Shown here piece by piece: positions 9,487-40,284 of a stretch of DNA of 64,000 bases. Source of the stretch: a virus; the IMG/VR virus record IMGVR_UViG_3300018931_000001, positions 1 through 64,000 of that record. One strand, 5' to 3'. The translations under genes and the position numbers were made by a program. The notes under the pieces were generated by a model. The model worked only from the letters and a program-made list of their open reading frames with translations, was not told where the DNA came from and did no database searches. Each line of letters starts with the position of its first letter. Within the stretch, counting starts at the first letter, position 1.

Positions 9487-9939
9487 ATGAAAATCAACCA
9501 AGACGGCTTAGACCTTATCAAGCAATTTGAAGGCTGCAAGCTTGAAGCATATCTCTGTCCGGCCGGAATTGCGACGATCGGGTACGGACACACCAAAACA
9601 GCAGAACTAGGCGCTGTCATCACTGAAGCTGAGGCGGAAGCACTGCTTAGAGCTGATTTGAAAGATGCGGAGGATGCGGTCAATCAATTGGTAACTGTAC
9701 CGATCAACGATAATCAATTTTCAGCACTGGTTAGTTTTGTGTTTAATGTCGGTACAGATTCTTTTGAACACTCAACCTTGCTTGCTATGCTCAATGCCTA
9801 CGCCAGCGCTCTCACTGTGTCAGCTCAGTTCTTACGGTGGAATAAAGCCGACGGGCAGGAATTACCAGGGCTAACACGCCGCCGCCATTCTGAGCGGGCA
9901 TTATTCGTAGGAGAGGACTGGAAAGTTTATTTGTTTTGA
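9487..9939 (+). CDS. Phage lysozyme (endolysin), GH24 family
   Basis: This encodes 150 residues from ATG 9487. A TTG at 9475 would add four residues, but ATG gives the usual N-terminus. The motifs LIKQFEG and CPAGIATIGYGHT define a T4-type lysozyme fold that cleaves peptidoglycan. Glu15, position 24 and Thr30 match the spacing of T4 Glu11-Asp20-Thr26, but position 24 is Cys, giving an E-C-T triad. No signal peptide or SAR helix is visible, so export needs a holin. The opposite-strand membrane protein gene overlaps its last 13 bases and is one holin candidate. Confidence 0.88.
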   Translation: MKINQDGLDLIKQFEGCKLEAYLCPAGIATIGYGHTKTAELGAVITEAEAEALLRADLKDAEDAVNQLVTVPINDNQFSALVSFVFNVGTDSFEHSTLLAMLNAYASALTVSAQFLRWNKADGQELPGLTRRRHSERALFVGEDWKVYLF

Positions 9940-12661: not shown

Positions 12662-14131
12662 TTAAAAGAGAGAAAGTTGAGTTCCTTCAGTTGCCTTGAA
12701 CCGATCGCGCGCCATCTGTTCTTTTGCTTCAACTTGAAGCCCAGCTAAATAAATATCAAGCGCGTCAGGTTCGTCAAAAAATGTTTGATATCGTTGCAAC
12801 ACCATGTCCAGGCAATCAGCTATATAGCGCAAACACGGCACCGCCATAGAGTTGCCCAAAGCTTTGTAGCGCAAGCTATTAGGAGAATATGGCTTACCTC
12901 TCCAAGGAATGTTAGTGTAATCGTCTGGGAAGCCTTGCAATCGTTCGCATTCGATCGGGGTTAGCCTGCGAATTTCCCAACCCAAAACTTGCTTAACAAC
13001 GACAGGAGAAATTTGATCGAGCGACCATCCACCAGAACCTTTTGCCAGTAAAGCATTAGAACTATTTTGGCGTAATGTCATTTGTCGGCAATCCACAGAA
13101 TAGGCAATCGACGCGCCGCTAGCTGTGCTGCTGATATGCGATTTGTGAAAATTACCGGCCCTCAACGTCGGAGCGCATTCTTCTCTAGCGTCGCCACCAG
13201 CATCTACTTTGCTAAAGCCGACGGAGGGGAAGGCTACTGCCGAACTATTACCGCATTTACCGGCTCGCAAAGTTGGTGATAGTTCCGATTTAGCTCCGTT
13301 GCCGTAGTCAATCGAGCTAAATCCAACGGCGATCGGAATGTAGCAACCTACTCCGTCAATTCGGTTTCCGCCTCCACCGTGTCCTTGTCCGAGGGTGTCA
13401 GAGATTGGTGGAGGAAATTCAATGCGTGTTCCAGTGTCGGATGCAGCTTTTTTCCTCGTGCTTTGCTGCGACGAAGCAACCCGGACACAGCCGTTAAACT
13501 CAAATGATATCTCTCCAGGTATTGATAAAAATCGTCGGCTGTCGAACCAGGATGGCGCATTAACCAATCTTCCAAGTTTTCGAGAATCGACGACAACTGC
13601 GTAGACTCGTTCCCTATTTTGGGCGAGTCCGAAGTTTCGAGCATTGAGCGTTCGCCAGGCCACGGAGATATATTTTCCGGCAACCATACCTGCACGTCGC
13701 CATTTTCCGTCCGGTGGGTTGATTTCGTCTGAGCCGACAGTGCAGCCCAAAAACTTGCCCCAGGGATTCCCTGCTGCCGATAATATTCCTGGTACATTTT
13801 CATAGATGGCAATAGCTGGTTGAATTTGTTTGAGTAATTCTAAGTATTGAAAGGTCAACATTCCTCGTGGATCGTCTAACGACTGCCGATCGCCTGCTAC
13901 CGAGAAAGATTGGCACGGCGGGCCACCAATTACTATGTCAATTTTGTCGCGCCAGAGCGTCCCGTCTATTTTTGTGATGTCGCCAAGATTGGGTGTTTCT
14001 GGGTAGTGATGAGCTAATACGACACTGGGGAATTTCTCAATTTCGGCGCAAAATTTGAAGTTGTACCGATCAACTAGAGCGTGTTCTGGCGCTCCGATAC
14101 CAGAGCAAAGTGTGGCAGCGCGTAGCTTCAT
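12662..14131 (-). CDS. DNA (cytosine-5-)-methyltransferase
   Basis: This encodes 489 residues. The C5-methyltransferase motifs occur in order: motif I TLCSGIGAPE (7-16), motif IV GGPPCQSFS with catalytic Cys73, motif VI ENVPG (111-115), motif VIII QNRERVY, a variable target-recognition region about 180-380, and motif X YKALGNSMAVP near the C-terminus. It methylates cytosine in double-stranded DNA using S-adenosylmethionine. The target-recognition region contains two similar segments (GFSSIDYGNGAKSELSPTLR and GFSKVDAGGDAREECAPTLR). No cognate restriction enzyme is visible nearby, so protection of phage DNA from host restriction is the likely role. Confidence 0.93.
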   Translation of the reverse strand: MKLRAATLCSGIGAPEHALVDRYNFKFCAEIEKFPSVVLAHHYPETPNLGDITKIDGTLWRDKIDIVIGGPPCQSFSVAGDRQSLDDPRGMLTFQYLELLKQIQPAIAIYENVPGILSAAGNPWGKFLGCTVGSDEINPPDGKWRRAGMVAGKYISVAWRTLNARNFGLAQNRERVYAVVVDSRKLGRLVNAPSWFDSRRFLSIPGEISFEFNGCVRVASSQQSTRKKAASDTGTRIEFPPPISDTLGQGHGGGGNRIDGVGCYIPIAVGFSSIDYGNGAKSELSPTLRAGKCGNSSAVAFPSVGFSKVDAGGDAREECAPTLRAGNFHKSHISSTASGASIAYSVDCRQMTLRQNSSNALLAKGSGGWSLDQISPVVVKQVLGWEIRRLTPIECERLQGFPDDYTNIPWRGKPYSPNSLRYKALGNSMAVPCLRYIADCLDMVLQRYQTFFDEPDALDIYLAGLQVEAKEQMARDRFKATEGTQLSLF

Positions 14132-14207
14132 TATTTTCGCTTAGGGTATAGTTAGATTAGCGGAACCGAAGTTGCAGTCAGTTCCGCCGGGATTGTAAGT
14201 GGTAGTC

Positions 14208-15101
14208 TTAGACAATCGGGAATTGGCGGACTCGAATGGTTTCAGGCCACTCCGCCATATCTCCCCCTTTGCGGTTTTTGAGTTTGATTCGAGAGTGAGA
14301 TACTGCTACGCCATCAATATATGGAGCGTAGCCGATAGCGTTCTGACCCCACTGCTTAACAAATACCGCGACTGACGCTTCTTGACATTGGGTGACGATC
14401 GACTCAATCCAGTTTCGATGGCAAGGACGGGATTTAGTGCCACTCTCTCCGCCGACAATGACCCAACTTACTCCAGGCAAATATTTACCGTCTAGATCTG
14501 CCCACAAAAAGTCCGAAAGATAACTAGAAAGATCGACGGATTCCAGTAATGGTTCACAGCTTAAAAACCGAACTACCGCCGGAGTGTTTAGCAAATATGG
14601 GATGCGTTGATCTACAACTTCTTGATTCTCTATCGACGTTCCTAGCCATACGTTAGGCAACGGCCAGTTATTGATGCAGTCCATATTGTGCGTAAAACTG
14701 TAACCTGCCTCTTCAATCCGATCGACTGTTGCTGACTCTGACAAATACTGCTGCATCCGCTTTGGGCGTTTCGTCAAAATTTGAAATGTGTGTTGCCGAG
14801 CAAATGCCATTACAGCAAAAATTTTGTCTATCCATTCATCTTTTACATTGGCGTGAAAAATATCGGACATTGAACAGACAAACACTTTTTTGGAAGCTTT
14901 CCAAGATAACGGCTTTAGTAGTTGTTTTTCAACAAACGCGATCGTGCCGTCCCAGTCTTTGACCATTTGATACTGAGGAAACTGCTGCAACCGTGCAGAC
15001 TTTGTCGCTTCGGCGGCATAACAACGAGCGCAGCCAACACTTATTTTTGAGCATCCAACTAATGGATTCCAAGTTTCATTCGTCCACTGAATATTACTCA
15101 T
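14208..15101 (-). CDS. Phage Gp37/Gp68 family protein (DUF5131)
   Basis: This encodes 297 residues. The N-terminus SNIQWTNETWNPLVGC, the Cys motif C-x6-C-x2-C (CSKISVGCARC), and the C-terminal VIVGGESGTKSR-C-H-R-W and FVKQWG segments are the signature of the DUF5131/Gp37-Gp68 family, common on phages and mobile elements. The Cys triad recalls a radical-SAM-like iron-sulfur site, but the biochemical activity is not established. It sits between two DNA methyltransferase genes, which suggests a role in nucleic-acid modification. Confidence 0.85.
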   Translation of the reverse strand: MSNIQWTNETWNPLVGCSKISVGCARCYAAEATKSARLQQFPQYQMVKDWDGTIAFVEKQLLKPLSWKASKKVFVCSMSDIFHANVKDEWIDKIFAVMAFARQHTFQILTKRPKRMQQYLSESATVDRIEEAGYSFTHNMDCINNWPLPNVWLGTSIENQEVVDQRIPYLLNTPAVVRFLSCEPLLESVDLSSYLSDFLWADLDGKYLPGVSWVIVGGESGTKSRPCHRNWIESIVTQCQEASVAVFVKQWGQNAIGYAPYIDGVAVSHSRIKLKNRKGGDMAEWPETIRVRQFPIV

Positions 15102-15129
15102 GTTTTTGCGTTAATTTTGATTTTTGTGT

Positions 15130-15777
15130 TCAACTTTCAGGACTTTCCGCGCCCCACGAATCCCAATTTGATCGCCGCTGTCGCGCAAACAACTCTATGT
15201 TTTTGCCACCTAATTTCTTGGCAAGTCGATCAGCAATTACCCAAAATTCTTCCGGCTTCTGACTATGCTTGCCACGCGGGGCATGAATGACGTTGGGAAT
15301 ATTAGTCAGCCCATGTGATGTAAAACTGCCGGGTTTGCCTTTGGTCGCGACTAACCAATGTTCAGTGCAGTTTCGCCCATAATGACCAATGCCGATATTT
15401 GGTCTTGGATTTTCCTCTGTGCTTGCCTTCGTCGTTTTCACCCATGTGAAAATTGACTTATACTCAAACCCCCAAGCTTTCAAACACTCAAACCCCAGTA
15501 GTAGGTGATTATTTGTCACCCATAACAAGAGGTAGCAGTTGACATCGGCGATCGCCCCAACAGGCAAGCCCAGTATTTCAGCGTCGGACATAGAAGGGTA
15601 AGGACAACGACCTCTATGTGATGGATCTGTTTCTCGCAAGCTGTAAGCCCAAGGCGGATCAATCGCTATCAGGCTGTAATTCCCGACTGGGATAGGTGGC
15701 AGGCTGGGGAGTAATTGCTGGGTGATCGCTAGTTTCAATTGCCCGGTTTTGTCGGTGACATCGTAAGTCGCTTTCAT
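15130..15777 (-). CDS. MT-A70 family adenine-N6 methyltransferase
   Basis: This encodes 215 residues. The catalytic DPPW is at residues 40-43 (IAIDPPWAYS), preceded by a hydrophobic strand, with LLLWVTNNHLL, EHWLVATKGKPG and HSQKPEEFW further on. These are MT-A70 motifs, and phage members methylate adenine in DNA. It starts one base upstream of the end of the following gene on the minus strand and is probably co-transcribed with the other modification genes. With the C5 enzyme it gives the element two kinds of base modification. Confidence 0.9.
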   Translation of the reverse strand: MKATYDVTDKTGQLKLAITQQLLPSLPPIPVGNYSLIAIDPPWAYSLRETDPSHRGRCPYPSMSDAEILGLPVGAIADVNCYLLLWVTNNHLLLGFECLKAWGFEYKSIFTWVKTTKASTEENPRPNIGIGHYGRNCTEHWLVATKGKPGSFTSHGLTNIPNVIHAPRGKHSQKPEEFWVIADRLAKKLGGKNIELFARQRRSNWDSWGAESPES

Positions 15778-22796: not shown

Positions 22797-24272
22797 ATGA
22801 CTACTAATCACGCCCCTAGAAACGCCGCAAACCCCTTCGTAATAGTTTCTTCAAATATAGCCAAGAATCCAAACTTGAGTGCGGTTGAGTGCCGAGTAAT
22901 GACTATCCTGCTAAATATGCCGCAAGGTTGGCAGCCAAACGCCAAACACCTGTCAAATCAAATGCTGGAAGGCACGAGTGCAATCCAAAGAGCCATTACT
23001 CGGCTCAAGCAATTGGGTTATTTAGTCTGTCGCAGCATTCGAGATGCTGCAGGTCGGTTTCTGCGATCGGACTGGGAAATCAATGAAATCCCCGCACCCC
23101 CCAGCGACGAGAATATTGACGCCAGGGGCAACGTCATCGCAGTTGATCGTCCCGACCAAGCTCCCAAAAACTTGAGGCGGGAAGCAAGGCAACGAGCAAA
23201 AAGCGGTCAAAAAACAGAGGTAAAACGGCAAACTGAAACCCTTGCTGCTGCGTCGTTTAATCCGTATCCGGGTTTTCCAGATACGGGTTTTGAAAACGTA
23301 ATTAATATAGATATATCAAATATCCAAAGTATTGAGAGAGAAGCGGGTTTTGAAAATTTGGAAGTAGAAACCGAATGCCAGATCCAAGAGACTGAAAGTG
23401 AATACCAGTGTCAAGAAAACAACTTGTTTGCAAAAACAGCAAGCACTCGATCGGATCAGTATTCCGCGCCCGCCGAGTCCGCTAAATACTGGAACGAGAC
23501 TGAGCTTAGGGAATTCCAGTCCCAGCTAGAAGATTTGGGCAAACGACTAGGGCGAAAATCCCCGGTTGCTTGGGCGTTTACGATCGTCCAAAACTTGAGA
23601 ACTGGCACACCCTGCACCTACTGGGAAGAGTTCAAGGCAGGCGTACCGCTGGGAACTTCAGAACAACGGGAATGGGAAACAGCACCGGGCGTCCCTTGTG
23701 CGATCGCAATTCAGTGCCTAGAAGCGGACTTCCTCTCCCGCCCCGGCACAACCCCGCAGGAGGCGGCCCGGAAAGCAGCGCAAGTAGTATCGCGACCAAA
23801 GGAGATGGCAGCAGTCTGGGAAACCATCAAAGCGCGGGTAGTGTTTCAGAAAGAGGAATGGGAACGACAGTCGGCGCTGGGAGTGCAGACTCCGGTGGTA
23901 GATTCTTGGTTGCGAGCAAAGCCGTCAGTGTCGGTGGAGGAAGCGGCGATCGCACTGCACGAAATACAATCAGCTTTGCCACCAGCACTTCAGCCAAGTG
24001 ACGAGCCCAGTTCTCTGCCTCCTCTTGCCGTGCCAGTATTGAGCGAGTCCGTTGATGGCGGCGCGACTAATGTTGCCAGTGAAGTAGATGAAGTGGCTAT
24101 AGCGGCGAAGACAACGATTTGGGCTACTTTGAGCAAGTTTGCGAGGCCGAACAAAAAGCGGAATATTTTGGAAGCAAATATTGCCGAAGTGAAAAAACTG
24201 GTTCCGGTGGTGACGGCTGCGAAAGAGGTGAAGTGCGACGCAGTAGCGGATGAAGAGGAAGAAATTTGGTGA
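22797..24272 (+). CDS. Helix-turn-helix protein, replication-initiator-like
   Basis: This encodes 491 residues from ATG 22797; a longer frame from 22662 would overlap the upstream gene and is less likely. Residues about 10-75 form a winged HTH (LSAVECRVMTILLNMP ... NQMLEGTSAIQRAITRLKQLGYL) like HTH_36-type domains found at the front of plasmid and phage replication initiators. A linker rich in Gln/Glu follows, then a helical region about 215-380. The position between two antirepressor genes suggests a regulator or an O-like origin-binding protein. No origin iterons were recognised inside it. Confidence 0.6.
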   Translation: MTTNHAPRNAANPFVIVSSNIAKNPNLSAVECRVMTILLNMPQGWQPNAKHLSNQMLEGTSAIQRAITRLKQLGYLVCRSIRDAAGRFLRSDWEINEIPAPPSDENIDARGNVIAVDRPDQAPKNLRREARQRAKSGQKTEVKRQTETLAAASFNPYPGFPDTGFENVINIDISNIQSIEREAGFENLEVETECQIQETESEYQCQENNLFAKTASTRSDQYSAPAESAKYWNETELREFQSQLEDLGKRLGRKSPVAWAFTIVQNLRTGTPCTYWEEFKAGVPLGTSEQREWETAPGVPCAIAIQCLEADFLSRPGTTPQEAARKAAQVVSRPKEMAAVWETIKARVVFQKEEWERQSALGVQTPVVDSWLRAKPSVSVEEAAIALHEIQSALPPALQPSDEPSSLPPLAVPVLSESVDGGATNVASEVDEVAIAAKTTIWATLSKFARPNKKRNILEANIAEVKKLVPVVTAAKEVKCDAVADEEEEIW

Positions 24273-24342
24273 TAAATAGAAGTTTAGCCAATTTGCAAGA
24301 GTTGGTGCAATACGTGTGATCGGGTAAACTGGTAGAAATGCA

Positions 24343-25469: not shown

Positions 25470-25613
25470 TCAATCACCCCAAATTTCCTGAATATCTTCT
25501 GCATCATCCAAGCACAAATGCCTCGGATTCTCTATTTCTGAAAGCTTGCCCGGTTCGTCGTTGTAAGATTCGTAGTAACTCAAATCAATAACAAAACCCC
25601 GAGCCAACGCCAT
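25470..25613 (-). CDS. Small unknown protein
   Basis: This encodes 47 residues starting MALARGFVIDLSYYES, acidic, ending EDIQEIWGD. It follows the zinc-ribbon gene by 18 bases on the same strand, and the composition looks coding. The family is not recognised. Confidence 0.45.
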   Translation of the reverse strand: MALARGFVIDLSYYESYNDEPGKLSEIENPRHLCLDDAEDIQEIWGD

Positions 25614-25631
25614 TGTTCTGCCGTTGAAACA

Positions 25632-25808
25632 TCACTCGGCATCTCGCCAGATGGCAAAATATGCAATGCCACAAGTCGGGCAATCCCAGCGCGTACCAAT
25701 GTGTGGGGGTTCCGTGTGGAAGCGGCGAAACTCGATCGGCTTGCCCCTCAAGTCCGACAACCGGACGGTATTGTTGCAGCAGATTGATCGACACAAGTTT
25801 CTACTCAC
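25632..25808 (-). CDS. Small zinc-ribbon-like protein
   Basis: This encodes 58 residues from a GTG at 25808 that overlaps the upstream stop as TAGTG, implying translational coupling. Cys pairs near the start (CRSICC) and the C-terminal WDCPTCGIAYFAIWRD resemble a one-zinc ribbon. It is the third gene of the HNH cassette. The function is unknown. Confidence 0.55.
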   Translation of the reverse strand: MSRNLCRSICCNNTVRLSDLRGKPIEFRRFHTEPPHIGTRWDCPTCGIAYFAIWRDAE

Positions 25809-26077
25809 TATTCAACACTCCTACTTTCCAGCCGTCTTAAATAATCCCTAAAAAGCATCAAGTCAAAATTAGACTCTACCGTACCTATTTGAATGCTTCC
25901 CGTGGTTTGATAGCTCAGCATTTCTTGAAATTCCCGATCTATACCCAACCGCTCGAATTCTTGCTGTATTTCATCCAATAACTGAGTTTTCTGCTGTTCC
26001 TGTTCTGGAGTGCGATCGGGAGGAACAGCAAAATCTTTAAGCGTGTATTCAAATGGTTCGGAGTTTAAATTAAACAT
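25808..26077 (-). CDS. Small protein homologous to the N-terminus of the 11.7-12.4 kb protein
   Basis: This encodes 89 residues. Nearly the whole length (FEYTLKDFAVPP ... SYQTTGSI ... FDLMLFRDYLRRLESR) aligns with residues about 18-95 of the protein at 11662-12417. It begins directly after the HNH gene. The shared helical domain may be a partner or chaperone for the HTH proteins encoded beside each copy; this is inference. Confidence 0.65.
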   Translation of the reverse strand: MFNLNSEPFEYTLKDFAVPPDRTPEQEQQKTQLLDEIQQEFERLGIDREFQEMLSYQTTGSIQIGTVESNFDLMLFRDYLRRLESRSVE

Positions 26078-26578
26078 TTACTCACCTGCATAATCTATGT
26101 GATTCCACGCTAAACCTCTACTAATATTTCCGATCGTTGAACGACTCACTCCGAACAGTTGGGCAATTTCTGGTATAGTAAGTTGCTGCTCAAATAATAA
26201 CTTTTTTATTTCCATAACTTGATTTTCGGTAAATCGGGACTTCCCAGCTCCCTTTACATTAGAACCTTTTGCTTGCTTGTTGCGCCGTCTTTGATTCAAC
26301 CCGTTTTCAACTTTAGTTCCTAAAAAAAGATGTTCGGGATTGATGCAAAGCGAATCTTGACACTTATGGTAAACGCATAAACCTTTTGGAATTTCTTCGT
26401 TTTTGTATACTTCGTATGCAATACGGGTAAGTTTAAAGTTTTTATTGTTGATGCTGATTGCTTGAATTTTACATCTGCCTACATTGCATATTTTGTAGTT
26501 GGTTATCCAGCAATCATTTTTTGAAACAATATGCGATTCAATACGTTTTTGAAGTGATAGTCTTTGATTTGCATCCAT
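26078..26578 (-). CDS. HNH endonuclease with C-terminal HTH
   Basis: This encodes 166 residues. An HNH_3-type core is visible (CWITNY ... LTRIAYEVYKNE ... GLCVYHKCQDSLCINPEHLFLGT) with His/Asn/His in the expected places, followed by a C-terminal HTH (FTENQVMEIKKLL ... LFGVSRSTIGNI). This is the usual build of free-standing phage homing endonucleases, which nick or cut DNA at specific sites. The HTH matches that of the small protein at 11408-11662. Confidence 0.85.
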   Translation of the reverse strand: MDANQRLSLQKRIESHIVSKNDCWITNYKICNVGRCKIQAISINNKNFKLTRIAYEVYKNEEIPKGLCVYHKCQDSLCINPEHLFLGTKVENGLNQRRRNKQAKGSNVKGAGKSRFTENQVMEIKKLLFEQQLTIPEIAQLFGVSRSTIGNISRGLAWNHIDYAGE

Positions 26579-26590
26579 TTTAACAACTCC

Positions 26591-27001
26591 CTAATTAACA
26601 AAAACACCTATCAACAAACTTGTCAAAGCAGTCAATACGACAATCAGCCCGATCGCACCCAACATATAACAACTGTTGACCGCCCAGCATTTACCTAATA
26701 AACAAGCTTTAGCATACGGCACAACCCACCAATCAAAATTAAACCACTCCGTGCCACCATCAATTTTACCTCGATATGTTCTCACCAATTTAAACTGTTT
26801 GTGCAGCGACTGTTCCACAAACAGCATATTAAACGTCCAAGCAACTTGCAACAGTTTTAGCTGAGTGCCATAGGATTGCTTGAGGTATCGCAGTCGGGTT
26901 GCGGGCGATCGGGATAAGCCTATTTTGTAAAGTTGCACGGCGGGGTCGTAAATTAGATACACGTAACCGGGGACGGCGTGGTTCTGTTGTTTAATATTCA
27001 T
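26591..27001 (-). CDS. GIY-YIG (T5orf172-like) protein with C-terminal membrane helix
   Basis: This encodes 136 residues. Residues about 12-90 (GYVYLIYDPAVQLYKIGLSR ... RLRYLKQSYGT ... VEQSLHKQFK ... GTEWFNF) match the T5orf172/MUG113 branch of GIY-YIG nucleases. A strongly hydrophobic segment follows (about 108-135), unusual for this family and implying membrane tethering. It is the neighbour of the HNH gene and the membrane-protein operon. Confidence 0.78.
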   Translation of the reverse strand: MNIKQQNHAVPGYVYLIYDPAVQLYKIGLSRSPATRLRYLKQSYGTQLKLLQVAWTFNMLFVEQSLHKQFKLVRTYRGKIDGGTEWFNFDWWVVPYAKACLLGKCWAVNSCYMLGAIGLIVVLTALTSLLIGVFVN

Positions 27002-27194
27002 GGTTATACCTCTTTTGTATTACTTCTCTAACAAAACCTTTAACTAAGCCAGGTTCCACGTTGCGCCGATTAGCTGTTATTTCGTGTACAGACGCTGAGT
27101 CTAAAGATTCGTCATACGCCAAGAGATCAATAGCATCTATTGAGGCTTCTACTTTGGCGTCATGCACTCTTTCTGGTAAATCAGAATATTTCAT
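26991..27194 (-). CDS. Small acidic unknown protein
   Basis: This encodes 67 residues starting MKYSDLPERVHDAKVEAS, acidic and predicted helical, overlapping the GIY-YIG start by 11 bases. The family is not recognised. The overlap suggests co-expression with the nuclease-like gene. Confidence 0.6.
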   Translation of the reverse strand: MKYSDLPERVHDAKVEASIDAIDLLAYDESLDSASVHEITANRRNVEPGLVKGFVREVIQKRYNHEY

Positions 27195-27207
27195 GGTTGT
27201 TACAGTT

Positions 27208-28656
27208 TTAAATTTTAACTTCTTCTTTTTTCCTTACTTGATAAGGAATGTTGTACGCATCCAAAATTTTTCGCACTCGATCAAGTGCCATTACGAACTT
27301 GCGAGAATCGCCGCTTGATCGCGCTTGATAAACAATTCCGCAAACGTGTCGCTGGTTTTGATTTTTTTCAATCAGCCACAGCTTTAGAATCCAATTTCTC
27401 TCGACAACAGAAATCTCTGAGTTGTGACGAGGGTCGATCGGCACAAGCGGATCTTCCATAGTTTTCAAAAACGCTAAGAAGTTTTCCAAAGGTTCTTCAA
27501 GCGCGGATTTTGCGCTAAAAGTGTCGATTGCTGCGCTTTGGTACTCGCTAACCGCGCTATCCTCTACGCGGGCTGAAATTGAGGCTGCGTCGGGCATAAA
27601 CGAGAATTGCATTGCGCCCTTGGCAATTGAGAGCGCAATCTTCTCGCTTTGCAATCTTTGCTGGACTAAACCTAAATAAGGTCTAATTTTTGCTTCAGAA
27701 TAATCAATCCTGAGACGAACAAAAATGCGCCCGTCCTCGTGCAAATAACTGCTTTTATACTGGCAGTTAATACCTTGAGATTTGAGCACGTCGCGAATAG
27801 TTCTAGCTGCGATCGTGCTAGGCTGCAAATCTTCTGGAAAAGATTCCTGCAACTGTGCGATCGTGTTGGCTGCGTGAGAAAGTTCTGATTCCAACTGTTC
27901 GATTCTGGCTTTGAGTTGATCGACTTGTTCGTGGTGCTTCTCCAAAAACTCTTTTTTGAATTCTTTAAATTCATCTTCGCGCAACTTGCAAACTTCTTCA
28001 AATTCAGATTGTTGTTTGGCGTAAAAATCTTGAATTTCCTTAGTTTTTTGTGCTTCAAGTTCTTCAATTTCAGCAATTGAGAAAGATTCTTCTTCATTTA
28101 ATTGAGCTTTTCTCTCCGCTAATTCTGCTAGCTCTTGTTCGCACTGCTGCTCGAACTGCAAACGCTCTCTTTCGAGGGTTAGCCTGGATTCTTCAAGTAT
28201 TTTAGCTTTAAGGGCTTCTACTCTAGATTGCAGCTCAAGTTCTTCTTCCTCAATAGCTTGCTCGCGAGCAGTAACTTCAGCTTCGCGCTCGCTCAGCTCC
28301 ATACGATCGGCACTCAACAAAGCATCTATACGCTGCCGGGAAAGTTCTTCTTGTGCAGCGATAGTTTCTTCAATGTCAATAAGCTCTTTGCGGCGGATAC
28401 TGATAAATTCTTCTAAATTTAAATTCTGAATTTCTAAATTACTAAATGTTTGGTTTAGAGATTCAAAGTATTTAAAGAAGTTGGGAGATACTTGCAAAAA
28501 TACTAACCCTAACAGAATCTCTCCAGATTGAGCTAAAACACTAATTTTACCGGGAAAAGCGCGGGCCGTGACGGCACAACCTAAAGCGCTTACTGCTAAT
28601 GTGTACTGGCAACTTTCCCGCAATATTTTTTTCCAATTACGTGCGGGCTTTTCCAT
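27208..28656 (-). CDS. Membrane-anchored long coiled-coil protein
   Basis: This encodes 482 residues. Two hydrophobic segments near residues 16-33 and 38-56 form a membrane hairpin. Residues about 60-285 are a long Glu/Lys/Gln-rich coiled coil. The C-terminal about 190 residues form alpha/beta domains, with one segment around residues 290-350 (TIRDVLKSQGINCQYKSSYL ... GRIFVRLRIDY) and another ending in RVRKILDAY. Its start overlaps the end of the small two-helix membrane gene. The shape suggests a membrane-tethered scaffold or DNA-positioning protein. I do not recognise a named family. Confidence 0.7.
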   Translation of the reverse strand: MEKPARNWKKILRESCQYTLAVSALGCAVTARAFPGKISVLAQSGEILLGLVFLQVSPNFFKYFESLNQTFSNLEIQNLNLEEFISIRRKELIDIEETIAAQEELSRQRIDALLSADRMELSEREAEVTAREQAIEEEELELQSRVEALKAKILEESRLTLERERLQFEQQCEQELAELAERKAQLNEEESFSIAEIEELEAQKTKEIQDFYAKQQSEFEEVCKLREDEFKEFKKEFLEKHHEQVDQLKARIEQLESELSHAANTIAQLQESFPEDLQPSTIAARTIRDVLKSQGINCQYKSSYLHEDGRIFVRLRIDYSEAKIRPYLGLVQQRLQSEKIALSIAKGAMQFSFMPDAASISARVEDSAVSEYQSAAIDTFSAKSALEEPLENFLAFLKTMEDPLVPIDPRHNSEISVVERNWILKLWLIEKNQNQRHVCGIVYQARSSGDSRKFVMALDRVRKILDAYNIPYQVRKKEEVKI

Positions 28657-28831
28657 ACTTTTTAATTCGTTCGTAAACTAAGAGTAATGCTAGGGCAATC
28701 AGGGAGGCAACAGCGCCGCTCAAAATATTTTTGCTATTGGGATGCTTGTATATTTTGAGGGCTAGCGCAATCGCCAGCCCCGATAAATCGACAGCTAGCA
28801 CTCCGATAACAGCGAAGTACAACTGTTTCAT
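28637..28831 (-). CDS. Small two-helix membrane protein
   Basis: This encodes 64 residues with hydrophobic helices at about 3-25 and 38-54 and a basic C-terminus. It overlaps the start of the long coiled-coil gene by 20 bases, pointing to translational coupling and probably a shared complex. A small holin-like or accessory subunit role is possible. Confidence 0.6.
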   Translation of the reverse strand: MKQLYFAVIGVLAVDLSGLAIALALKIYKHPNSKNILSGAVASLIALALLLVYERIKKYGKART

Positions 28832-28834
28832 TGA

Positions 28835-29218
28835 TTACACCTCAACGGGGGTTTTGGCGCGGGATTTGATGTTATTGGCAGCGCGGGAATTGAAAGACAA
28901 ATCAGGTGTTTCTGTGCCGCGCACCTTGAGGGTTTTGATTTTGAGTTGCAGGTTCTGCCCTTCTGACTTTAACGTTCCCATAGTGCGGGTAAAACTTAAG
29001 TCGTTCTGAGCGATCGCCTTAAGTTCTAAGGCTGTTTCGTGTTTGATAGAAGCCGTGTCGCGCTTAACTTCCTGAGTGTCAGCTTTGATTTTCTGAGTTT
29101 CTTCCCAGGCTTTTGCACCGCGTTCTTTATGTTTCCAGCCTGCTTTCATGTGGGTTTGCACTACTTTTTTGCTGGCTGCAATTTCTGTTTCGTAAGCTAA
29201 ATCGGTTACTAAACTCAT
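28835..29218 (-). CDS. Soluble helical protein of the membrane operon
   Basis: This encodes 127 residues from ATG 29218, with AAGGA about ten bases upstream; a longer frame to 29326 lacks a good ribosome site. It is Lys/Glu/Thr-rich and helical (KKVVQTHMKAGWKHKERGAKAWEE). It sits three bases before the small membrane protein. The function is unknown. Confidence 0.6.
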   Translation of the reverse strand: MSLVTDLAYETEIAASKKVVQTHMKAGWKHKERGAKAWEETQKIKADTQEVKRDTASIKHETALELKAIAQNDLSFTRTMGTLKSEGQNLQLKIKTLKVRGTETPDLSFNSRAANNIKSRAKTPVEV

Positions 29219-29245
29219 GATTGTGTTCCTTGTATTGATTGATTT

Positions 29246-29277
29246 ACAAGCCCAGAGACTGGCTCGAACCAGCTTGT
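29246..29277. promoter_or_regulatory. Leader hairpin upstream of the 127-residue protein gene
   Basis: ACAAG (29246-29250) pairs with CTTGT (29273-29277), and inside it CTGG (29259-29262) pairs with CCAG (29269-29272). It lies in the 114-base gap between two minus-strand genes. No U-tract is present. A leader hairpin or processing site is possible. Confidence 0.4.
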
Positions 29278-29332
29278 TTCTACTTTTTAGGGCAATTATC
29301 TCAGGCATCAGTAGACTAGCCTCCAAATTAAA

Positions 29333-29659
29333 TTAACGTCCAAGAATTCGCTTACAATAAGCCGCAGTTTCTCTTTTTGTGGCAGACATATCTCCTTGCA
29401 ACTGAACAAGATGTGACTTTGCCCGATCAAGCTGGTAATTTTGCTGACTTGCGCCTAAAATTGTACCGATACCCAAACCTGCAACTCCACAAATTCCACC
29501 AATTACAAGTGCTGTTTTTAGCACCGTAGGCTGCTGTTGATGGTGTTTGAAATTTGTGCCTAACGCAGGCGTTCCAGTTTCCAAATTGATAATAGGCTGC
29601 GGTTGGCTATCAATGTTTACTGTGATTGAGTGTTTTTGGTCTGGATATTGCTGCTGCAT
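29333..29659 (-). CDS. Single-pass membrane protein
   Basis: This encodes 108 residues. A polar, Gln/Pro-rich N-terminus (about 1-46) is followed by a Gly-rich membrane helix (about 48-68) and a charged helical tail. It overlaps the previous gene by 43 bases. It resembles an accessory subunit of a membrane assembly. The family is not recognised. Confidence 0.6.
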   Translation of the reverse strand: MQQQYPDQKHSITVNIDSQPQPIINLETGTPALGTNFKHHQQQPTVLKTALVIGGICGVAGLGIGTILGASQQNYQLDRAKSHLVQLQGDMSATKRETAAYCKRILGR

Positions 29660-29946
29660 TTTTTGTCGCTTTCCACTAATTCAATCCAAAGATGTCCATC
29701 TAAAATCGCCATATGCTCAGTCGGACTGATGCCATGACAAAGCTGGTTGTCAAATTCATCTCTTACCTTCCATTCCCATTTCTCAGTCTTAGAAACAATA
29801 ATTGTGAATCCTTGGGGAATAAAAAACTCTGGATGGGTTAAAGTTATTTGCCTCCAGTATTTGCGTCTAAACAGTATCTGCGCGCAAATATTAATTATGT
29901 TTTGCAAAATTTTTGTGGATAGCAAACCAAATAAATTTTTTAGCAT
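29617..29946 (-). CDS. Unknown protein with hydrophobic N-terminus
   Basis: This encodes 109 residues from ATG 29946 (MLKNLFGLLSTKI). An upstream frame to 30009 would overlap the small gene before it. The N-terminal 25 residues are amphipathic/hydrophobic. The middle is beta-rich (FFIPQGFTIIVSKTEKWEWK) and ends in a polar tail. It is coupled to its neighbours. Confidence 0.6.
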   Translation of the reverse strand: MLKNLFGLLSTKILQNIINICAQILFRRKYWRQITLTHPEFFIPQGFTIIVSKTEKWEWKVRDEFDNQLCHGISPTEHMAILDGHLWIELVESDKKCSSNIQTKNTQSQ

Positions 29947-29947
29947 C

Positions 29948-30034
29948 TCACAATCCCACCATCTGATAAACGCTTTCGATGTCAATTTTGTAGTTAATCG
30001 GCGATCCAAACAAACTTTTAACCCATCCCCACAT
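29948..30034 (-). CDS. Tiny ORF with strong ribosome site
   Basis: This encodes 28 residues (MWGWVKSLFGSP...) with AGGAG nine bases before the ATG and a stop one base before the next gene start. The same frame stays open upstream with protein-like content (LLELLNQLSNRQIAELISK) to about 30130, but no standard start was found there; a CTG is possible. Either a small coupled gene or the end of a longer one with an unusual start. Confidence 0.4.
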   Translation of the reverse strand: MWGWVKSLFGSPINYKIDIESVYQMVGL

Positions 30035-30138
30035 ATGCTTTTCTCCTGTTGTTGATGACTTAGAAGTTTTTGATATCAATTCTGCAATTTGCCGATTGCT
30101 AAGTTGGTTTAATAACTCCAGTAAAAGTGCTTCTAGAG

Positions 30139-30783
30139 CTAAAGCTTGACTCCGAGGTTCTTGAGTGCAGCGTAAGCATCCAGTGGCGTTGCAGCCCCCG
30201 TTTGTGCTGTCTGAGTGTACGTCTGCGAGGACAATTGCGAGTTTGTCAAAAAATCATCACCCGCGCTGTCTTTGAGGAGTGCGTTGAGCCGATCGCGCGA
30301 TGCTTGACCTTTGTTAAATACAGCATCGCGAACAAGCATTGCACCCTCGCGCTCTTTTGTGGCCCGAACCAATTCCTTCACAACTCCGACCCGCAATCCA
30401 TCATCAGCCGCCTGCTGAATCTCTGTCTCTAGAATGTGAGCTTGTTGGCTCTCAGACGCGCTCATTGCGTTAGAAAGCCCTGTTTGGCGGATTTCAGCAA
30501 TCCCTATTTCGTCCGCTTGTGACACGGGCGCGGATTCAGAAACTTGCTTGATCGCATTTTCTGCATCTATCGGTTGATTTGCAGGATTGGATTCTAATTC
30601 TTGCTCAATTCCAGGCGTCAACTGGTGCGTAATATTTTGAGCAAATTGCTTTTTAATTAAGTTTATTTGCTCTGGCAAAAACTGGGTTTTGAAATTAACA
30701 CCCCGCAAGCCGACTTGAACAGCTAACCGCAAAACTTCAGCATCGGAAACTTGTAATTCAATAGCTAATTGTTTAGGTTTCAT
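30139..30783 (-). CDS. Unknown protein with IF2-N-like HTH domain
   Basis: This encodes 214 residues. The first 45 residues (KQLAIELQVSDAEVLRLAVQVGL ... LPEQINLIKKQF) resemble the small helical domain at the N-terminus of initiation factor 2, which is used elsewhere as a nucleic-acid or protein-binding HTH. The rest is helical, Ala/Gln/Glu-rich and partly disordered. Its start overlaps the upstream stop by four bases (ATGA). It may link the membrane operon to DNA; this is inference. Confidence 0.6.
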   Translation of the reverse strand: MKPKQLAIELQVSDAEVLRLAVQVGLRGVNFKTQFLPEQINLIKKQFAQNITHQLTPGIEQELESNPANQPIDAENAIKQVSESAPVSQADEIGIAEIRQTGLSNAMSASESQQAHILETEIQQAADDGLRVGVVKELVRATKEREGAMLVRDAVFNKGQASRDRLNALLKDSAGDDFLTNSQLSSQTYTQTAQTGAATPLDAYAALKNLGVKL

Positions 30784-31166
30784 TTTTTGTTGAATTCCTT
30801 ATAAAAACAACTGTGAGTCAGGCGATCGGCATGAGCAATTAAATGCTGTTTTAGTTCTTCTATCAAAGGTTTTGGTTTGCGAGCCATAAACTTTTTTATG
30901 TACTTCAAAACCCACATTTGATGGTGGTTCCAGGGGGTTCCCGGCATTAACACCGCTTCGCCCGTACCGGGGTCAAATAAATAATCAGAAAGTTTTTGAC
31001 CGTTTGTTTCGGCGTAAATTTCAATTATTAATTCTTCCCATTCGTAAGCCGTTTGCCTGCAAACCTTAAGGTGTTGCTCAATAAAATATTTTCGAGTCCA
31101 CCCCGTTATGCGTTCGCGAGCTTTTTGCGACCTTAACGTACAAATTTTAGGGGTTATTGCCGTCAT
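30780..31166 (-). CDS. Unknown protein, possibly DNA-binding
   Basis: This encodes 128 residues from ATG 31166; a start at 31208 would add 14 residues and overlap the upstream gene further. The segment RITGWTRKYFIEQHLKVCRQ looks like a helix-turn-helix, and the C-terminus is basic. It overlaps both neighbours and is part of a continuous leftward operon. Confidence 0.55.
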   Translation of the reverse strand: MTAITPKICTLRSQKARERITGWTRKYFIEQHLKVCRQTAYEWEELIIEIYAETNGQKLSDYLFDPGTGEAVLMPGTPWNHHQMWVLKYIKKFMARKPKPLIEELKQHLIAHADRLTHSCFYKEFNKK

Positions 31167-31344
31167 CTTCCCGCCTGTCACGTCCCAGAACGGGACTGTT
31201 GCAAACATTCCAAAAACTGGTGTAGCTTCTGGCTTTTGAGTCTTCAGTCAATCTGGCGATCGCATCAGCTTGCGACAGCGCCGGCACCTGAAACACTAAA
31301 ACTGATTGAAATCGTTCTACCTGAACAGGGTACATTTGCAACAT
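31147..31344 (-). CDS. Small unknown protein, first gene of the membrane operon
   Basis: This encodes 65 residues from ATG 31344, with GGAGGT a few bases upstream, which fixes the start. It reads MLQMYPVQVERFQSVLVFQV. The 3' end overlaps the next gene by 20 bases. It is the first gene after the operator/terminator region at 31.4-31.5 kb. The family is not recognised. Confidence 0.6.
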   Translation of the reverse strand: MLQMYPVQVERFQSVLVFQVPALSQADAIARLTEDSKARSYTSFWNVCNSPVLGRDRREDDGNNP

Positions 31345-31413
31345 TTTGACCTCCACCAGACAAGTTTCAAAACACCTCAAATGCTTGTGCTACAAACAAT
31401 TTGAGCTATCGGA

Positions 31414-31463
31414 CTAGACAGGTACTGACTAGACGCAACTCGTGTCTAGCGACCCGTGTCTAT
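31414..31463. promoter_or_regulatory. CTAGAC operator-like array upstream of the membrane operon
   Basis: CTAGAC occurs at 31414-31419 and 31429-31434, 15 bases apart. Its complement GTCTAG is at 31444-31449, and a partial copy GTCTAT at 31458-31463. The second and third form an inverted repeat with nine bases between. Regular spacing of short boxes upstream of an operon suggests an operator. The HTH gene at 31687 is a nearby candidate for the binding protein. Confidence 0.55.
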
Positions 31464-31480
31464 TTCGATAAACCAACAAT

Positions 31481-31501
31481 AAACCCCTCGCTTGGAGGGG
31501 T
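31481..31501 (-). terminator. Terminator for the small gene at 31520
   Basis: ACCCCTC (31483-31489) pairs with GAGGGGT (31495-31501) with a five-base loop. On the minus strand it is followed by TTTATT, so it should end leftward transcription from 31520-31953. Confidence 0.65.
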
Positions 31502-31519
31502 AAACTGACTGGGTAAGGT

Positions 31520-31690
31520 TTAATTCGATTCGGCTTTTTTCGTTTTTTTCTCGTGGTGAAATCGCTCTTCTTCCCATCCTGCTCTTGCTATGTTCGATCG
31601 TAAATCGTCTTTTCTACCTCCAGACTGGTAGTGCCACTGACCTTTAATCCATTCAAAGTCCCATTCGGGCGTCCCATATTCAGCACTCAT
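31520..31690 (-). CDS. Small unknown protein
   Basis: This encodes 56 residues from ATG 31690, overlapping the upstream HTH gene stop as ATGA. It begins MSAEYGTPEWDFEWIKGQWH, with a charged C-terminus. It is probably co-translated with the HTH gene. The function is unknown. Confidence 0.55.
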   Translation of the reverse strand: MSAEYGTPEWDFEWIKGQWHYQSGGRKDDLRSNIARAGWEEERFHHEKKTKKAESN

Positions 31691-31953
31691 AATCCCCACT
31701 CCCGTTTCCATTTTTCTTGTAGAGCGGCAGCGTGCATCTTTACCCATTTATTAGGAGGGCGACGCTTGGAAAGCCAAGTATAAAGCGTGTTGGGGTCACA
31801 ACCAAAAGCCTCTGCAAATTGTCGCTGATTCCATCCAAATTTTGCCGAAGCTTGATAAAAAAGCATAGTTGGATCGAGCTCTGCTGGTTCAACGATCGGC
31901 GGTGCAGCAATTTTGCCGCGCTGCACGGCGGTTGATGATGATAAACTAGGCAT
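31687..31953 (-). CDS. Small HTH transcriptional regulator
   Basis: This encodes 88 residues. The segment FGWNQRQFAEAFGCDPNTLYTWLSKRR (about 39-65) is a helix-turn-helix resembling Cro/XRE or transposase-type HTHs. The N-terminus is Ala/Pro-rich. It may bind the CTAGAC array about 240 bases downstream. Autoregulation and control of the membrane operon are inferences. Confidence 0.65.
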   Translation of the reverse strand: MPSLSSSTAVQRGKIAAPPIVEPAELDPTMLFYQASAKFGWNQRQFAEAFGCDPNTLYTWLSKRRPPNKWVKMHAAALQEKWKREWGL

Positions 31954-32029
31954 ATCGTTCTATGGCTCTATACGGTGTTAGTGGGCGATCGGCCCCGAGT
32001 GTTTGCTGCACTGCGGGGCACTTCAATTT

Positions 32030-32326
32030 TTACAAGTGAGCATCAAGCGGTTTAGTGAGTTCTGACAGCAAAGCGATTCGGGGTTTAGCATCGTCGATAT
32101 GCAGAAAATCAGCACATACCAACGTCAACAAATCTTTAAAATACGCCTGACCTAGTTGGTCTTCGGTAATGGTAACTGAATCAGGAATCCCCCTGAACCA
32201 CAACTGCAACTCGTTTTGAGCAGTCAAATGAAAAGAAACAATTTCATCGGTATCAATTCCTAAATAAGGAATTTCACCTTTAAGCCCGATGACGTGTTGA
32301 TTGTTTAATGGAAATCTAATTTTCAC
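32030..32326 (-). CDS. Unknown small protein
   Basis: This encodes 98 residues from GTG 32326, with GAAGGA immediately upstream. A far longer frame to 32815 exists but overlaps the HNH-like gene completely in another frame, so the short form is preferred. It is beta-rich at the N-terminus (VKIRFPLNNQHVIGLKGEIPYLG) and helical at the C-terminus. It follows the HNH-like gene by 13 bases. Confidence 0.6.
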   Translation of the reverse strand: MKIRFPLNNQHVIGLKGEIPYLGIDTDEIVSFHLTAQNELQLWFRGIPDSVTITEDQLGQAYFKDLLTLVCADFLHIDDAKPRIALLSELTKPLDAHL

Positions 32327-32339
32327 TCCTTCATTCCTC

Positions 32340-32837
32340 CTAATTGTTTCTCCGCTGCTGTTCGCGCTTGTTGTGGCACGGAACGCAGACACATTCCACG
32401 GCCAAATGATTGATGGTGGCGTAGCCCAAATAGTGATCGTATTCGTGCTGTCTGTCGCTCCCAATATGTCCGCAGTCGGTGCAAGGCACAGTTCGAGCAT
32501 GGGGCAATTTGCCATTTCTAACCATGTGATTAACTCGATTGCGGGCTTGCTGTTTATCGCCGTCCCTGGGAGGATAAACGGCAAAACCTCGCGGTTTTCG
32601 TTGATCGAGCGGGACGGGTTCGTAGCGCTGGCGGTCTTTAGCTCGCGTGCAACTTTTGCATTTGTTGCTTTTACCGTCGATCGCGCCTGAATCTTTGTTG
32701 AAAAAAGCGAGTGGTACCCAGGTTTTACAAGCTGAACACCACTTAAAACCTGATTGGCGTTTTTGAAAATACTCTTGCCAAGTGCAGCCAATTCTACAAG
32801 CGGCTGATTTTGCACCTCCTAATTTTGTGTTAGCCAT
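32340..32837 (-). CDS. Zinc-binding HNH-like nuclease
   Basis: This encodes 165 residues. Four Cys pairs are seen: WCSACKTW, KCKSCTRAK, PCTDCGHIG and VCVPCHNKR. HEYDHYLGYATINHLAVECVCVPCH provides the His/Asp and His-Asn-type core of an HNH motif. It is probably a homing-type or repair-type nuclease. Phages often carry several free-standing HNH genes, and this is the second here. Confidence 0.75.
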   Translation of the reverse strand: MANTKLGGAKSAACRIGCTWQEYFQKRQSGFKWCSACKTWVPLAFFNKDSGAIDGKSNKCKSCTRAKDRQRYEPVPLDQRKPRGFAVYPPRDGDKQQARNRVNHMVRNGKLPHARTVPCTDCGHIGSDRQHEYDHYLGYATINHLAVECVCVPCHNKREQQRRNN

Positions 32838-32871
32838 CTACTCTTTACCTCCCATTCAAGGTTTCTGTTAA

Positions 32872-33186
32872 TTATGGGCGTGCCTTTTTCAGTCTTTTAT
32901 CAAGCTCTTCTTGGGTACTAATGCCACCGCGTACATCTGTCGAATTAGGGTCTACTCCAAAAGCCTTTAGCTTGTGTTTCCACTTGGCTTTTACCTCGTC
33001 GTCACAGTGTGCCATTGCATCCTCCCAAGTAGGAGATTTCCCTTGTGGGTGATTGGCGACAAATAGCATTTGATATTTGAGCGTTGTCGGATCGTGCGGC
33101 TCCTCGTCCGGGTGCTTCTGACCACAAATTTGGCAGCCATCGGGAGCGGAAGGAAGCACGTAAAACTTGCCTTTTTCTATTTCCAT
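32872..33186 (-). CDS. Unknown protein with CxxC motif
   Basis: This encodes 104 residues. An N-terminal CQICGQKH resembles half of a zinc site; the rest is helical and charged. It contains MLFVANHPQGKSPTWEDAMA. It begins the leftward cluster and is divergent from the recombinase gene. The family is not recognised. Confidence 0.6.
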   Translation of the reverse strand: MEIEKGKFYVLPSAPDGCQICGQKHPDEEPHDPTTLKYQMLFVANHPQGKSPTWEDAMAHCDDEVKAKWKHKLKAFGVDPNSTDVRGGISTQEELDKRLKKARP

Positions 33187-38562: not shown

Positions 38563-40284
38563 TTTATTCAACCAGTTACTTATAATCTCAGGGATTATCA
38601 AGAAAACCTCATCCGCCAGATATTCGCCAGTTGGCAGACCAAACGCAGTGTCATGCTGCAATTACCGACTGGTGGCGGAAAAACAATCTTGTTCGCATAC
38701 CTCGCCCGCGAATTTGCCAAAAAAGGAATGGGGGTACTGGTACTGGCGCACCGGGAAGAACTGTTACTGCAAGCTCAGGAGAAGTTAGAGGCAGTTACTG
38801 GAGTTCCGGCGGGAATAATTAAGTCCGGCTACCCGGTGTATTCTTACGATCTCCAGGTTGCCTCTGTTCAGTCTTTAGTCCGACGCAAGAACAAACCCGA
38901 CGCGGGGCTGGTGATTGTAGACGAGGCTCACCACGCATCTTCTAAGACTTACACCACAATTCTTCAAGCCTACCCAGAAGCTTATGTTCTGGGCTGCACC
39001 GCCACACCGCACCGGATCGACGGTCAAGGGTTCAAGTGGTTGTTTGACGAGCTAATTTGCGGCCCGTCAACAGGAGAGTTAATCGAACGGAAATACCTCT
39101 CGCGTTACAAGCTATTTCAGGGCGTGAAAGTGGTGGACACTTCAAAAACCAAAACCACCGCCGGAGATTTCAATAAGGCAGCACTAGCCCACGAAGTTGA
39201 TTTACAAATTGAGCCGATCGACGTAGTGAACGAATGGCGCAAACGAGCCAACGGGTTGCGAACCGTTGTCTTTGCGGTGGACATCGCCCATTCTCGGCAG
39301 TATGCAGAAGCATTTTTAGAGGCTGGCATCATTGCAGAACACTTGGACGGGGCGACGGGCAAAGAGGATCGCCGGGATATTTTGCATCGGTTTGGAAGCG
39401 GGGAAACGACGGTGCTATGCAATTGCGGAATTATTTCGGAGGGTTTTGATTTACCTGCGATCGAGTGCGTTCAAGTTGTACGCCCCACCAAGTCGCTATC
39501 AATGTGGCTTCAAATAGTCGGGCGGGGGCTTAGACCTGCACCAGGGAAAGAACACGCCGTAATTATTGATCACACTACTAATTGGAAATTTTTAGGACTT
39601 CCAGATGAAGATCGGGAGTGGACACTTGAACCAATAAGCATTGACAGCAGTGCAAAACGTTTCTTGCACATTGTTTGCACGGATTGCAACCACGCTTTTA
39701 AACCCCTGCCCCACGAAACAAAAGCGCTGAAATGCGAATGCCCGAATTGTCGATCCATTCATTGTTTTGAGATTGGAGAGGGAGGTATAGCATTAACTGT
39801 CAAAACTTTGGATGCGAACACCAAAGAGGAAGAGATTGATTTAGATGTCGATCCAGATCTCAAAGTTTTAATTGATTACTATTATGAGCTTTGTTCTGTG
39901 CACGGTCAAAGGCTAGCTTCTGTCTATTTCAATTTTGAGGAGGAGTGTCTAGACATTTTGCACAAGGTGTCTATTGGTACGTGGAGGTATCTAGCTCAGA
40001 AACTAGGATACAAGAAGGGGTGGGCTTGGTACAAGTGGAAAAACGCACAAAATCAAAGCAATATCAACGAAAAAACTTTGAAATCAATGCCTGCACACAT
40101 AAATCCCAACAAAGCGGAAGGTAGGCGCAAATACATTAACTGGATTAAGCGTACAGGGTTTGAGCAGATTGAAGAGATGAAGCTAGGTAAGACTACATTT
40201 ACCGCATCAGAACTGGGGATAGGAGATGATGATTTTCTTGAATTACTGAAACCATTAACGGAAGACGACTTTATTGATTGGTGA
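38560..40284 (+). CDS. DEAD/DEAH-box SF2 helicase
   Basis: This encodes 574 residues. Walker A LPTGGGKT (35-42), DEAH box VDEAHH (120-125), motif III CTATPHR (146-152) and motif VI QIVGRGLRP (318-326) are all present. A Cys-rich zinc-binding insertion (CTDCNHAF ... CECPNC) follows at about 374-401, and a C-terminal helical domain completes it. It resembles phage helicases of the UvsW/RecG-like or type III restriction-helicase-like class. It should unwind branched DNA in replication or recombination beside RusA. Confidence 0.92.
   Translation: MFIQPVTYNLRDYQENLIRQIFASWQTKRSVMLQLPTGGGKTILFAYLAREFAKKGMGVLVLAHREELLLQAQEKLEAVTGVPAGIIKSGYPVYSYDLQVASVQSLVRRKNKPDAGLVIVDEAHHASSKTYTTILQAYPEAYVLGCTATPHRIDGQGFKWLFDELICGPSTGELIERKYLSRYKLFQGVKVVDTSKTKTTAGDFNKAALAHEVDLQIEPIDVVNEWRKRANGLRTVVFAVDIAHSRQYAEAFLEAGIIAEHLDGATGKEDRRDILHRFGSGETTVLCNCGIISEGFDLPAIECVQVVRPTKSLSMWLQIVGRGLRPAPGKEHAVIIDHTTNWKFLGLPDEDREWTLEPISIDSSAKRFLHIVCTDCNHAFKPLPHETKALKCECPNCRSIHCFEIGEGGIALTVKTLDANTKEEEIDLDVDPDLKVLIDYYYELCSVHGQRLASVYFNFEEECLDILHKVSIGTWRYLAQKLGYKKGWAWYKWKNAQNQSNINEKTLKSMPAHINPNKAEGRRKYINWIKRTGFEQIEEMKLGKTTFTASELGIGDDDFLELLKPLTEDDFIDW

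Follow-up and report, generated by a model that had tools for sequence, protein, structure and literature searches.

A minus-strand operon of small membrane and helical proteins in a virus genome resembles, without the ATPase, an unnamed operon of cyanobacterial plasmids and cyanophages

The stretch of DNA analysed here (the window) comprises 64,000 nucleotides (nt), positions 1-64,000 of the 71,013-bp IMG/VR virus record IMGVR_UViG_3300018931_000001, which belongs to a cyanophage. From position 31344 to 27208, its minus strand carries a compact operon of nine open reading frames (ORFs), which code in order for 65, 128 (or 142), 214, 28 (or 43 from a TTG start), 109, 108, 127 (or 157), 64 and 482 amino acids (aa). 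We compare this operon with an unnamed one, designated A-F after its six gene positions, that is found on cyanobacterial plasmids and in cyanophages; the two agree in layout and differ in the last gene.

The nine ORFs are real coding sequence: in a held-out six-frame codon test, trained outside the operon region and ignoring stops, every one of them scored best in its own frame. The initial annotation had described them as nine overlapping genes. Their coding character stands, but true overlaps occur at only four of the eight junctions (P8/P7, 20 nt; P7/P6, 4 nt; P5/P4, 43 nt; P2/P1, 20 nt), and at the remaining ones the genes are 1 to about 115 nt apart. The minus-strand block as a whole is larger than the operon, spanning about 25470-33186.

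The first gene, P8 (31147..31344; 65 aa), is preceded by a GGAGG ribosome site and is followed by P7 (30780..31166; 128 aa) and P6 (30139..30783; 214 aa). P6 had been called an IF2-N-like helix-turn-helix (HTH) protein, but the IF2_N model gave no match, and the sole HTH signal is a weak N-terminal one of the RpiR type, below threshold (expect value (E) 0.002). Next comes the small ORF of 28 aa (29948..30034), or of 43 aa from the TTG at 30079. Between 29948 and 30160 the coding signal continues upstream of the ATG of this ORF and overlaps the P6 end in a different frame; the ORF may start at a codon other than ATG, or a frameshift may be present. The membrane proteins are largely as first described: P4 (29333..29659; 108 aa) has a single transmembrane (TM) segment, P2 (28637..28831; 64 aa) is a two-TM peptide, and the hydrophobic N-terminus of P5 (29617..29946; 109 aa) is present as a TM segment, albeit a weak one. 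Between P4 and P2 lies P3 (28835..29218), a soluble helical protein of 127 aa, or of 157 aa with a start at 29308.

The last and longest gene, P1 (27208..28656; 482 aa), was originally read as a membrane hairpin plus a long coiled coil. One TM segment is clear (residues 38-56), but the hydrophobic stretch before it is weaker. Given that residues 59-273 (215 residues) contain no proline or glycine, a very long helix in this region is secure. The coiled coil itself is unproven, as the heptad periodicity was not above that of shuffled sequences (p 0.41). Beyond the helix, a domain at about residues 262-356 (27589..27873) and a C-terminal alpha/beta domain complete the protein. When this domain was modelled alone with AlphaFold2, the model reached a predicted local distance difference test score (pLDDT) of 73.8 and a predicted template-modelling score of 0.62, and the best natural PDB proteins in a Foldseek search were motor domains of FtsK (6t8o and 6t8b; E 1.5e-3 and 4.5e-3) and the conjugation protein TcpA (6o1x and 6o1z), with E values against the two proteins ranging from 1.5e-3 to 1.4e-2. 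In the full C-terminal model, which is of low confidence (pLDDT 54), FtsK had the top match probability among the matches listed. The models are thus suggestive of an FtsK-alpha-like fold in P1. A degenerate Walker A motif, 'SAKSAL', was considered in P1 and rejected: its alignment with the Walker A region in four of the F proteins described below gave p 0.006 in one case and p 0.19-0.42 in the other three, which is suggestive at most.

The view that the set belongs to no described family was borne out, since the operon proteins gave nothing above cut-off in Pfam, PHROGs, NCBIfam and PADLOC and no match in the PDB. Direct relatives were likewise absent when the operon proteins tested were compared by tblastn with GenBank phages and plasmids, and when P1 and P6 were compared with whole related phage records. 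A composite tblastn query, to which we give little weight, returned nothing even at E 10. Pattern scans of IMG/VR with four operon proteins and of GTDB genomes with P1 were also empty; these scans need exact eight-residue matches, which distant relatives could escape.

The A-F operon was found by way of its ATPase. A search of related records with the FtsK_SpoIIIE model recovered P-loop proteins with a membrane hairpin from cyanophage G011 and from Planktothrix plasmid p3, and a subsequent tblastn search with the Planktothrix ATPase yielded 13 plasmid records (Planktothrix, 10; Annamia, 2; Pseudanabaena, 1), all typed as non-mobilizable. The operon was seen in the neighbourhoods of 5 of the 13, these being the ones that were read. 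Its order is an HTH-like protein (A), a soluble protein (B), one or more one-TM peptides (C), a soluble helical protein (D), a peptide with two to three TM segments (E) and, as the last gene, a protein of 450-516 aa that combines a membrane hairpin with an FtsK/HerA-like P-loop ATPase (F). Two related cyanophages, G011 (82.5 kb) and G012 (96 kb), carry it as well, the G012 copy having been found by a profile search (E 2e-29). In G011, the genes before F encode soluble proteins of 147 and 166 aa, single-TM proteins of 65 and 106 aa, a soluble helical protein of 148 aa and an 89-aa protein with two to three TM segments, a series that parallels P7, P6, P5, P4, P3 and P2. The copies are not uniform: they differ in how many C genes they have, with none annotated between B and D in Planktothrix, and the Pseudanabaena copy is modified in order and lacks D. 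At 23481-24302 of G012, four small single-TM genes adjoin one another, which suggests a tandem expansion of the C position. All A-F genes are annotated as 'hypothetical protein' in their records. Since F gave only sub-threshold Pfam matches (FtsK, HerA, AAA and other P-loop NTPases; FtsK_SpoIIIE/DUF87/AAA) and the B, D and E proteins scanned gave none, the family appears to be undescribed in Pfam.

By size and membrane segments, P7, P6, P5/P4, P3, P2 and P1 of the window correspond to A, B, C, D, E and F, respectively, P5 being matched to the C-type small TM proteins by its place in the order alone. The initial annotation had raised the question whether the gene order recurs elsewhere, and it does: expressed as membrane-segment classes, the order 0-0-1-1-0-2-long, one of 420 arrangements of that composition, is found in G011, G012, Planktothrix and Annamia. 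The match in order, sizes and TM segments includes the overlap of E with F, which measures 20 nt in the window; on the plasmids of Planktothrix and Annamia its length is 11-13 nt. Outside the A-F operons and the window, a two-TM peptide whose gene overlaps that of a 350-700-aa protein with an N-terminal TM segment turned up at one place in the 2.5 Mb of DNA fetched. Position-matched alignment z-scores against the plasmid operons gave a diagonal sum of 10.9, with 6 of 720 permutations as good, as compared to a diagonal sum of 10.1 and 1 of 720 permutations for G012, which served as the control. Among single pairs, P3 and D were the most similar (phmmer E 0.0049 within a small set of family sequences; z 4.4), followed by P7 and A (0.036), P6 and B (0.10) and P4 and C (0.19). 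Layout and sequence taken together, we consider a common origin of the window genes with A-F somewhat more likely than not.

Several observations weigh against this reading. The pairwise similarities lie in the twilight zone, none being conclusive alone. Among the 431-716 ORFs scored with family hidden Markov models, the window partners rank between 3rd and 177th. When only the phage copies are considered, the similarity does not exceed chance (132 of 720 permutations), and P1 shows no significant similarity to F at either terminus. The elements used for comparison came from a search for an FtsK-like ATPase, and the P1 domain (suspected at about residues 274-355) was chosen after FtsK had been suspected from the sequence. 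In addition, Pfam FtsK_alpha (PF17854) does not match P1, a pairwise comparison of P1 with E. coli FtsK was at chance, and no Foldseek match in the PDB reached E 0.001, small alpha/beta folds being promiscuous in such searches.

The strongest competitor is that the operon is phage 'dark matter', a set of unrelated small host-takeover proteins in an early or lysogeny region, whose order matches A-F by coincidence and which form no single complex. The twilight similarity, the lack of homologues in any direct sequence search and the GIY-YIG and HNH homing-type genes within the same strand block would all fit. Such a coincidence would nevertheless have to cover order, sizes, TM counts and the E/F overlap, together with a position-matched similarity near that of the accepted member G012. 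The window phage also has neighbouring genes in common with G012, which shares its terminase, portal, helicase and Ant-like gene. We consider this explanation rather unlikely, though it retains more weight than any other rival.

The last gene sets the window apart. In the other copies read, it encodes a P-loop ATPase with a membrane hairpin; P1 has no Walker A motif, and FtsK_SpoIIIE (PF01580) has no match in the window's record. P1 is not classed as an FtsK-family protein, and we file the operon as a motor-less variant of A-F, not as a plain member. On the best reading, P1 keeps the position, the length and the membrane start of the F slot, and the motor has been replaced or delegated.

Given that A-F operons combine an ATPase of the FtsK/HerA kind with small membrane proteins and HTH-like proteins, their products may assemble at the membrane into a complex by which double-stranded DNA is held or moved. 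For the window, we give about even chances to the view that its operon is a diverged member of this phage and plasmid operon and assembles a membrane-anchored DNA-handling complex. The small membrane proteins P5, P4 and P2, together with the soluble helical P3 and with P1, would form a membrane platform, and P7 and P6 would bind or recruit DNA. The F protein of the other elements would act as a membrane-hairpin FtsK/HerA-type ATPase that pumps or holds double-stranded DNA. In the window phage, this slot would be filled by P1 with its long helical stalk and FtsK-alpha-like domain but no ATPase core. P1 could be a passive collar or tether, or could use a motor of the host, the phage or a co-resident element, so that phage DNA would be anchored or routed at the membrane; alternatively, it could interfere with a host or co-resident motor. 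The initial proposal of one complex linking membrane and DNA gains support from the membrane-hairpin FtsK/HerA-like ATPase of the F copies, but that the window genes act on DNA as a complex is something that we infer.

The operon is probably controlled from a region of its own, as a terminator-like hairpin on the minus strand (31483..31501; a consensus match only), which separates it from the upstream HTH genes, and a 64-bp nested dyad (31407..31470) precede its first gene. The dyad carries TGTCTA/TAGACA half-sites, has an RNA fold z of -3.45 and is, on its sequence, a candidate operator or recognition site; an Rfam search returned nothing. Clusters of TGTCTA/TAGACA occur at 31415-31462 and at 39919-39973, in the 3' part of the helicase gene, and nowhere else in the 71 kb. 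Among 1,377 six-mers about as abundant, two show a pair of such clusters, one of these also reaching four copies within a cluster; the motif had been picked after the first cluster had been seen. No TGTCTA-like repeat clusters were seen upstream of the other A-F operons.

On the minus strand upstream of the operon lies the gene of a small HTH regulator of 88 aa (31687..31953; PHROG regulator matches, E 4e-6). Directly downstream of P1, a 67-aa ORF (26991..27194), probably co-transcribed, is followed on the same strand by a GIY-YIG (T5orf172) protein with a C-terminal TM segment (26591..27001; Pfam E 3e-8) and an HNH/homing-endonuclease-like gene (26078..26578). G012 has a small HTH gene just upstream of its operon (25716-25937) and an HNH-like gene downstream, and G011 has an HNH-like gene after F. 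At 32030-32837 of the window, an ORF for an HNH zinc protein (32340-32837) overlaps another minus-strand frame (32030-32815) with a better codon score, possibly an interrupted or overprinted gene.

Both ends of the contig lie inside the tape-measure gene (1-1276 and 64464-71013), and therefore the record probably represents a circularly permuted phage genome that is nearly complete, with a small defect at the join, where the reading frames differ. The cyanobacterial HIP1 octamer occurs 17 times, with 0.7 occurrences expected. The structural genes, which begin at about 48 kb, pass the end of the record at 71 kb and continue to 20 kb, are kept in the related records G001-G004, and the region of 20-48 kb is variable. 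Along with the minus-strand block, this region contains an Arc-like regulator (20293), Ant (21162), a replication-initiation-like gene (22689), a second Ant-like gene (24402), a large serine recombinase of the XisF family serving as phage integrase (33416-34879; NCBIfam XisF E 4e-125, above cut-off), a regulator (35077), RusA (37691) and a helicase (38560). The XisF family is known from the fdxN developmental excision element. The operon itself is placed in a lysogeny-type region, between the Ant genes and the integrase. At 12662-15777, a C5 cytosine methylase, a DUF5131 (phage Gp37/Gp68) protein and a second DNA methyltransferase are clustered, the latter two being absent from the nearest relatives.

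If the operon served to position or segregate the phage as an episome, as first suggested, P1 would tether the genome to the membrane via a DNA-binding partner. The membrane segment, the long helix and the possible DNA binding would suit such a device, as would the iteron-like TGTCTA clusters at two sites and the presence of related operons on plasmids. On the other hand, the Pfam, PHROGs and NCBIfam scans found no ParA-type ATPase in the operon, which separates it from ParABS systems. A primary partition role is less likely because three of the operon-bearing plasmids examined carry separate ParA-like genes, and the phage itself probably integrates, given its XisF-type large serine recombinase. 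We regard this device as improbable.

A membrane-based role in superinfection exclusion or in defence against phages, also envisaged initially, is less probable still. Membrane proteins in a lysogeny-type region might serve such a role, and the N-terminal TM segment and long helix of P1 loosely recall Zorya ZorA (PADLOC E 0.044, helix only). The MotA/ExbB domain and ZorB partner of Zorya are lacking, however, PADLOC detected no system member, and the counterparts belong to small plasmids, in the company of an FtsK-like ATPase and of DNA-binding-like genes; no evidence was found in support of exclusion or defence. A holin/spanin lysis cassette, to which the small two-TM peptide P2 might belong, is hardly credible, as the endolysin (9487-9939; PHROG E 9e-59), conserved in relatives and with adjoining TM genes, lies far from the operon.

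Among known systems, the KfrA/KfrC plasmid proteins resemble P1 by description only, as long alpha-helical episome proteins with possible DNA binding (PMC7783346). FtsK/SpoIIIE, HerA-type translocases and TcpA of pCW3 share with P1 the N-terminal membrane segment or segments, the cytoplasmic stalk and, if the model is right, an alpha-domain-like fold, and translocases of the FtsK/HerA kind share with the F proteins the P-loop; P1 differs from them in lacking the RecA-type motor. The preferred comparison remains the A-F operon, to which the phage copies add the HTH gene before and the HNH gene after, as in the window. What appeared to be an orphan operon would thereby become a member or motor-less variant of a recurring unnamed module, common to cyanophages and small cyanobacterial plasmids. 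To our knowledge, the persistence and spread of small plasmids without recognised conjugation genes are poorly understood. Planktothrix and Pseudanabaena are filamentous. Annamia is the only Chroococcales genus with filamentous colonies (PMC10751749), and all three named plasmid host genera are therefore filamentous, in a small sample of three genera.

The closest working analogy is the TraB/Spd system of Streptomyces, in which TraB, an FtsK homologue, recognises 8-bp repeats, three to six diverse, homologue-less Spd proteins spread plasmids through the mycelium, and the membrane protein SpdB2 forms oligomers and binds DNA (PMC4170104). The likeness lies in the FtsK-like membrane ATPase (in the window's relatives), the small, diverse proteins without homologues, the small plasmids, the filamentous hosts and the DNA repeat clusters; the systems belong to different phyla, the window copy has no ATPase, and they are likened by description, transfer being known for the Streptomyces system alone. 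By this analogy, A-F might be a cyanobacterial counterpart in which an FtsK-like pump and small membrane proteins move DNA across septa along the filament, with the window phage as a motor-less variant riding on it or blocking it; we hold this to be unlikely. A membrane-anchored DNA-pump operon whose plasmid copies were found here only in three filament-forming genera would nevertheless make cell-to-cell spread along cyanobacterial filaments testable.

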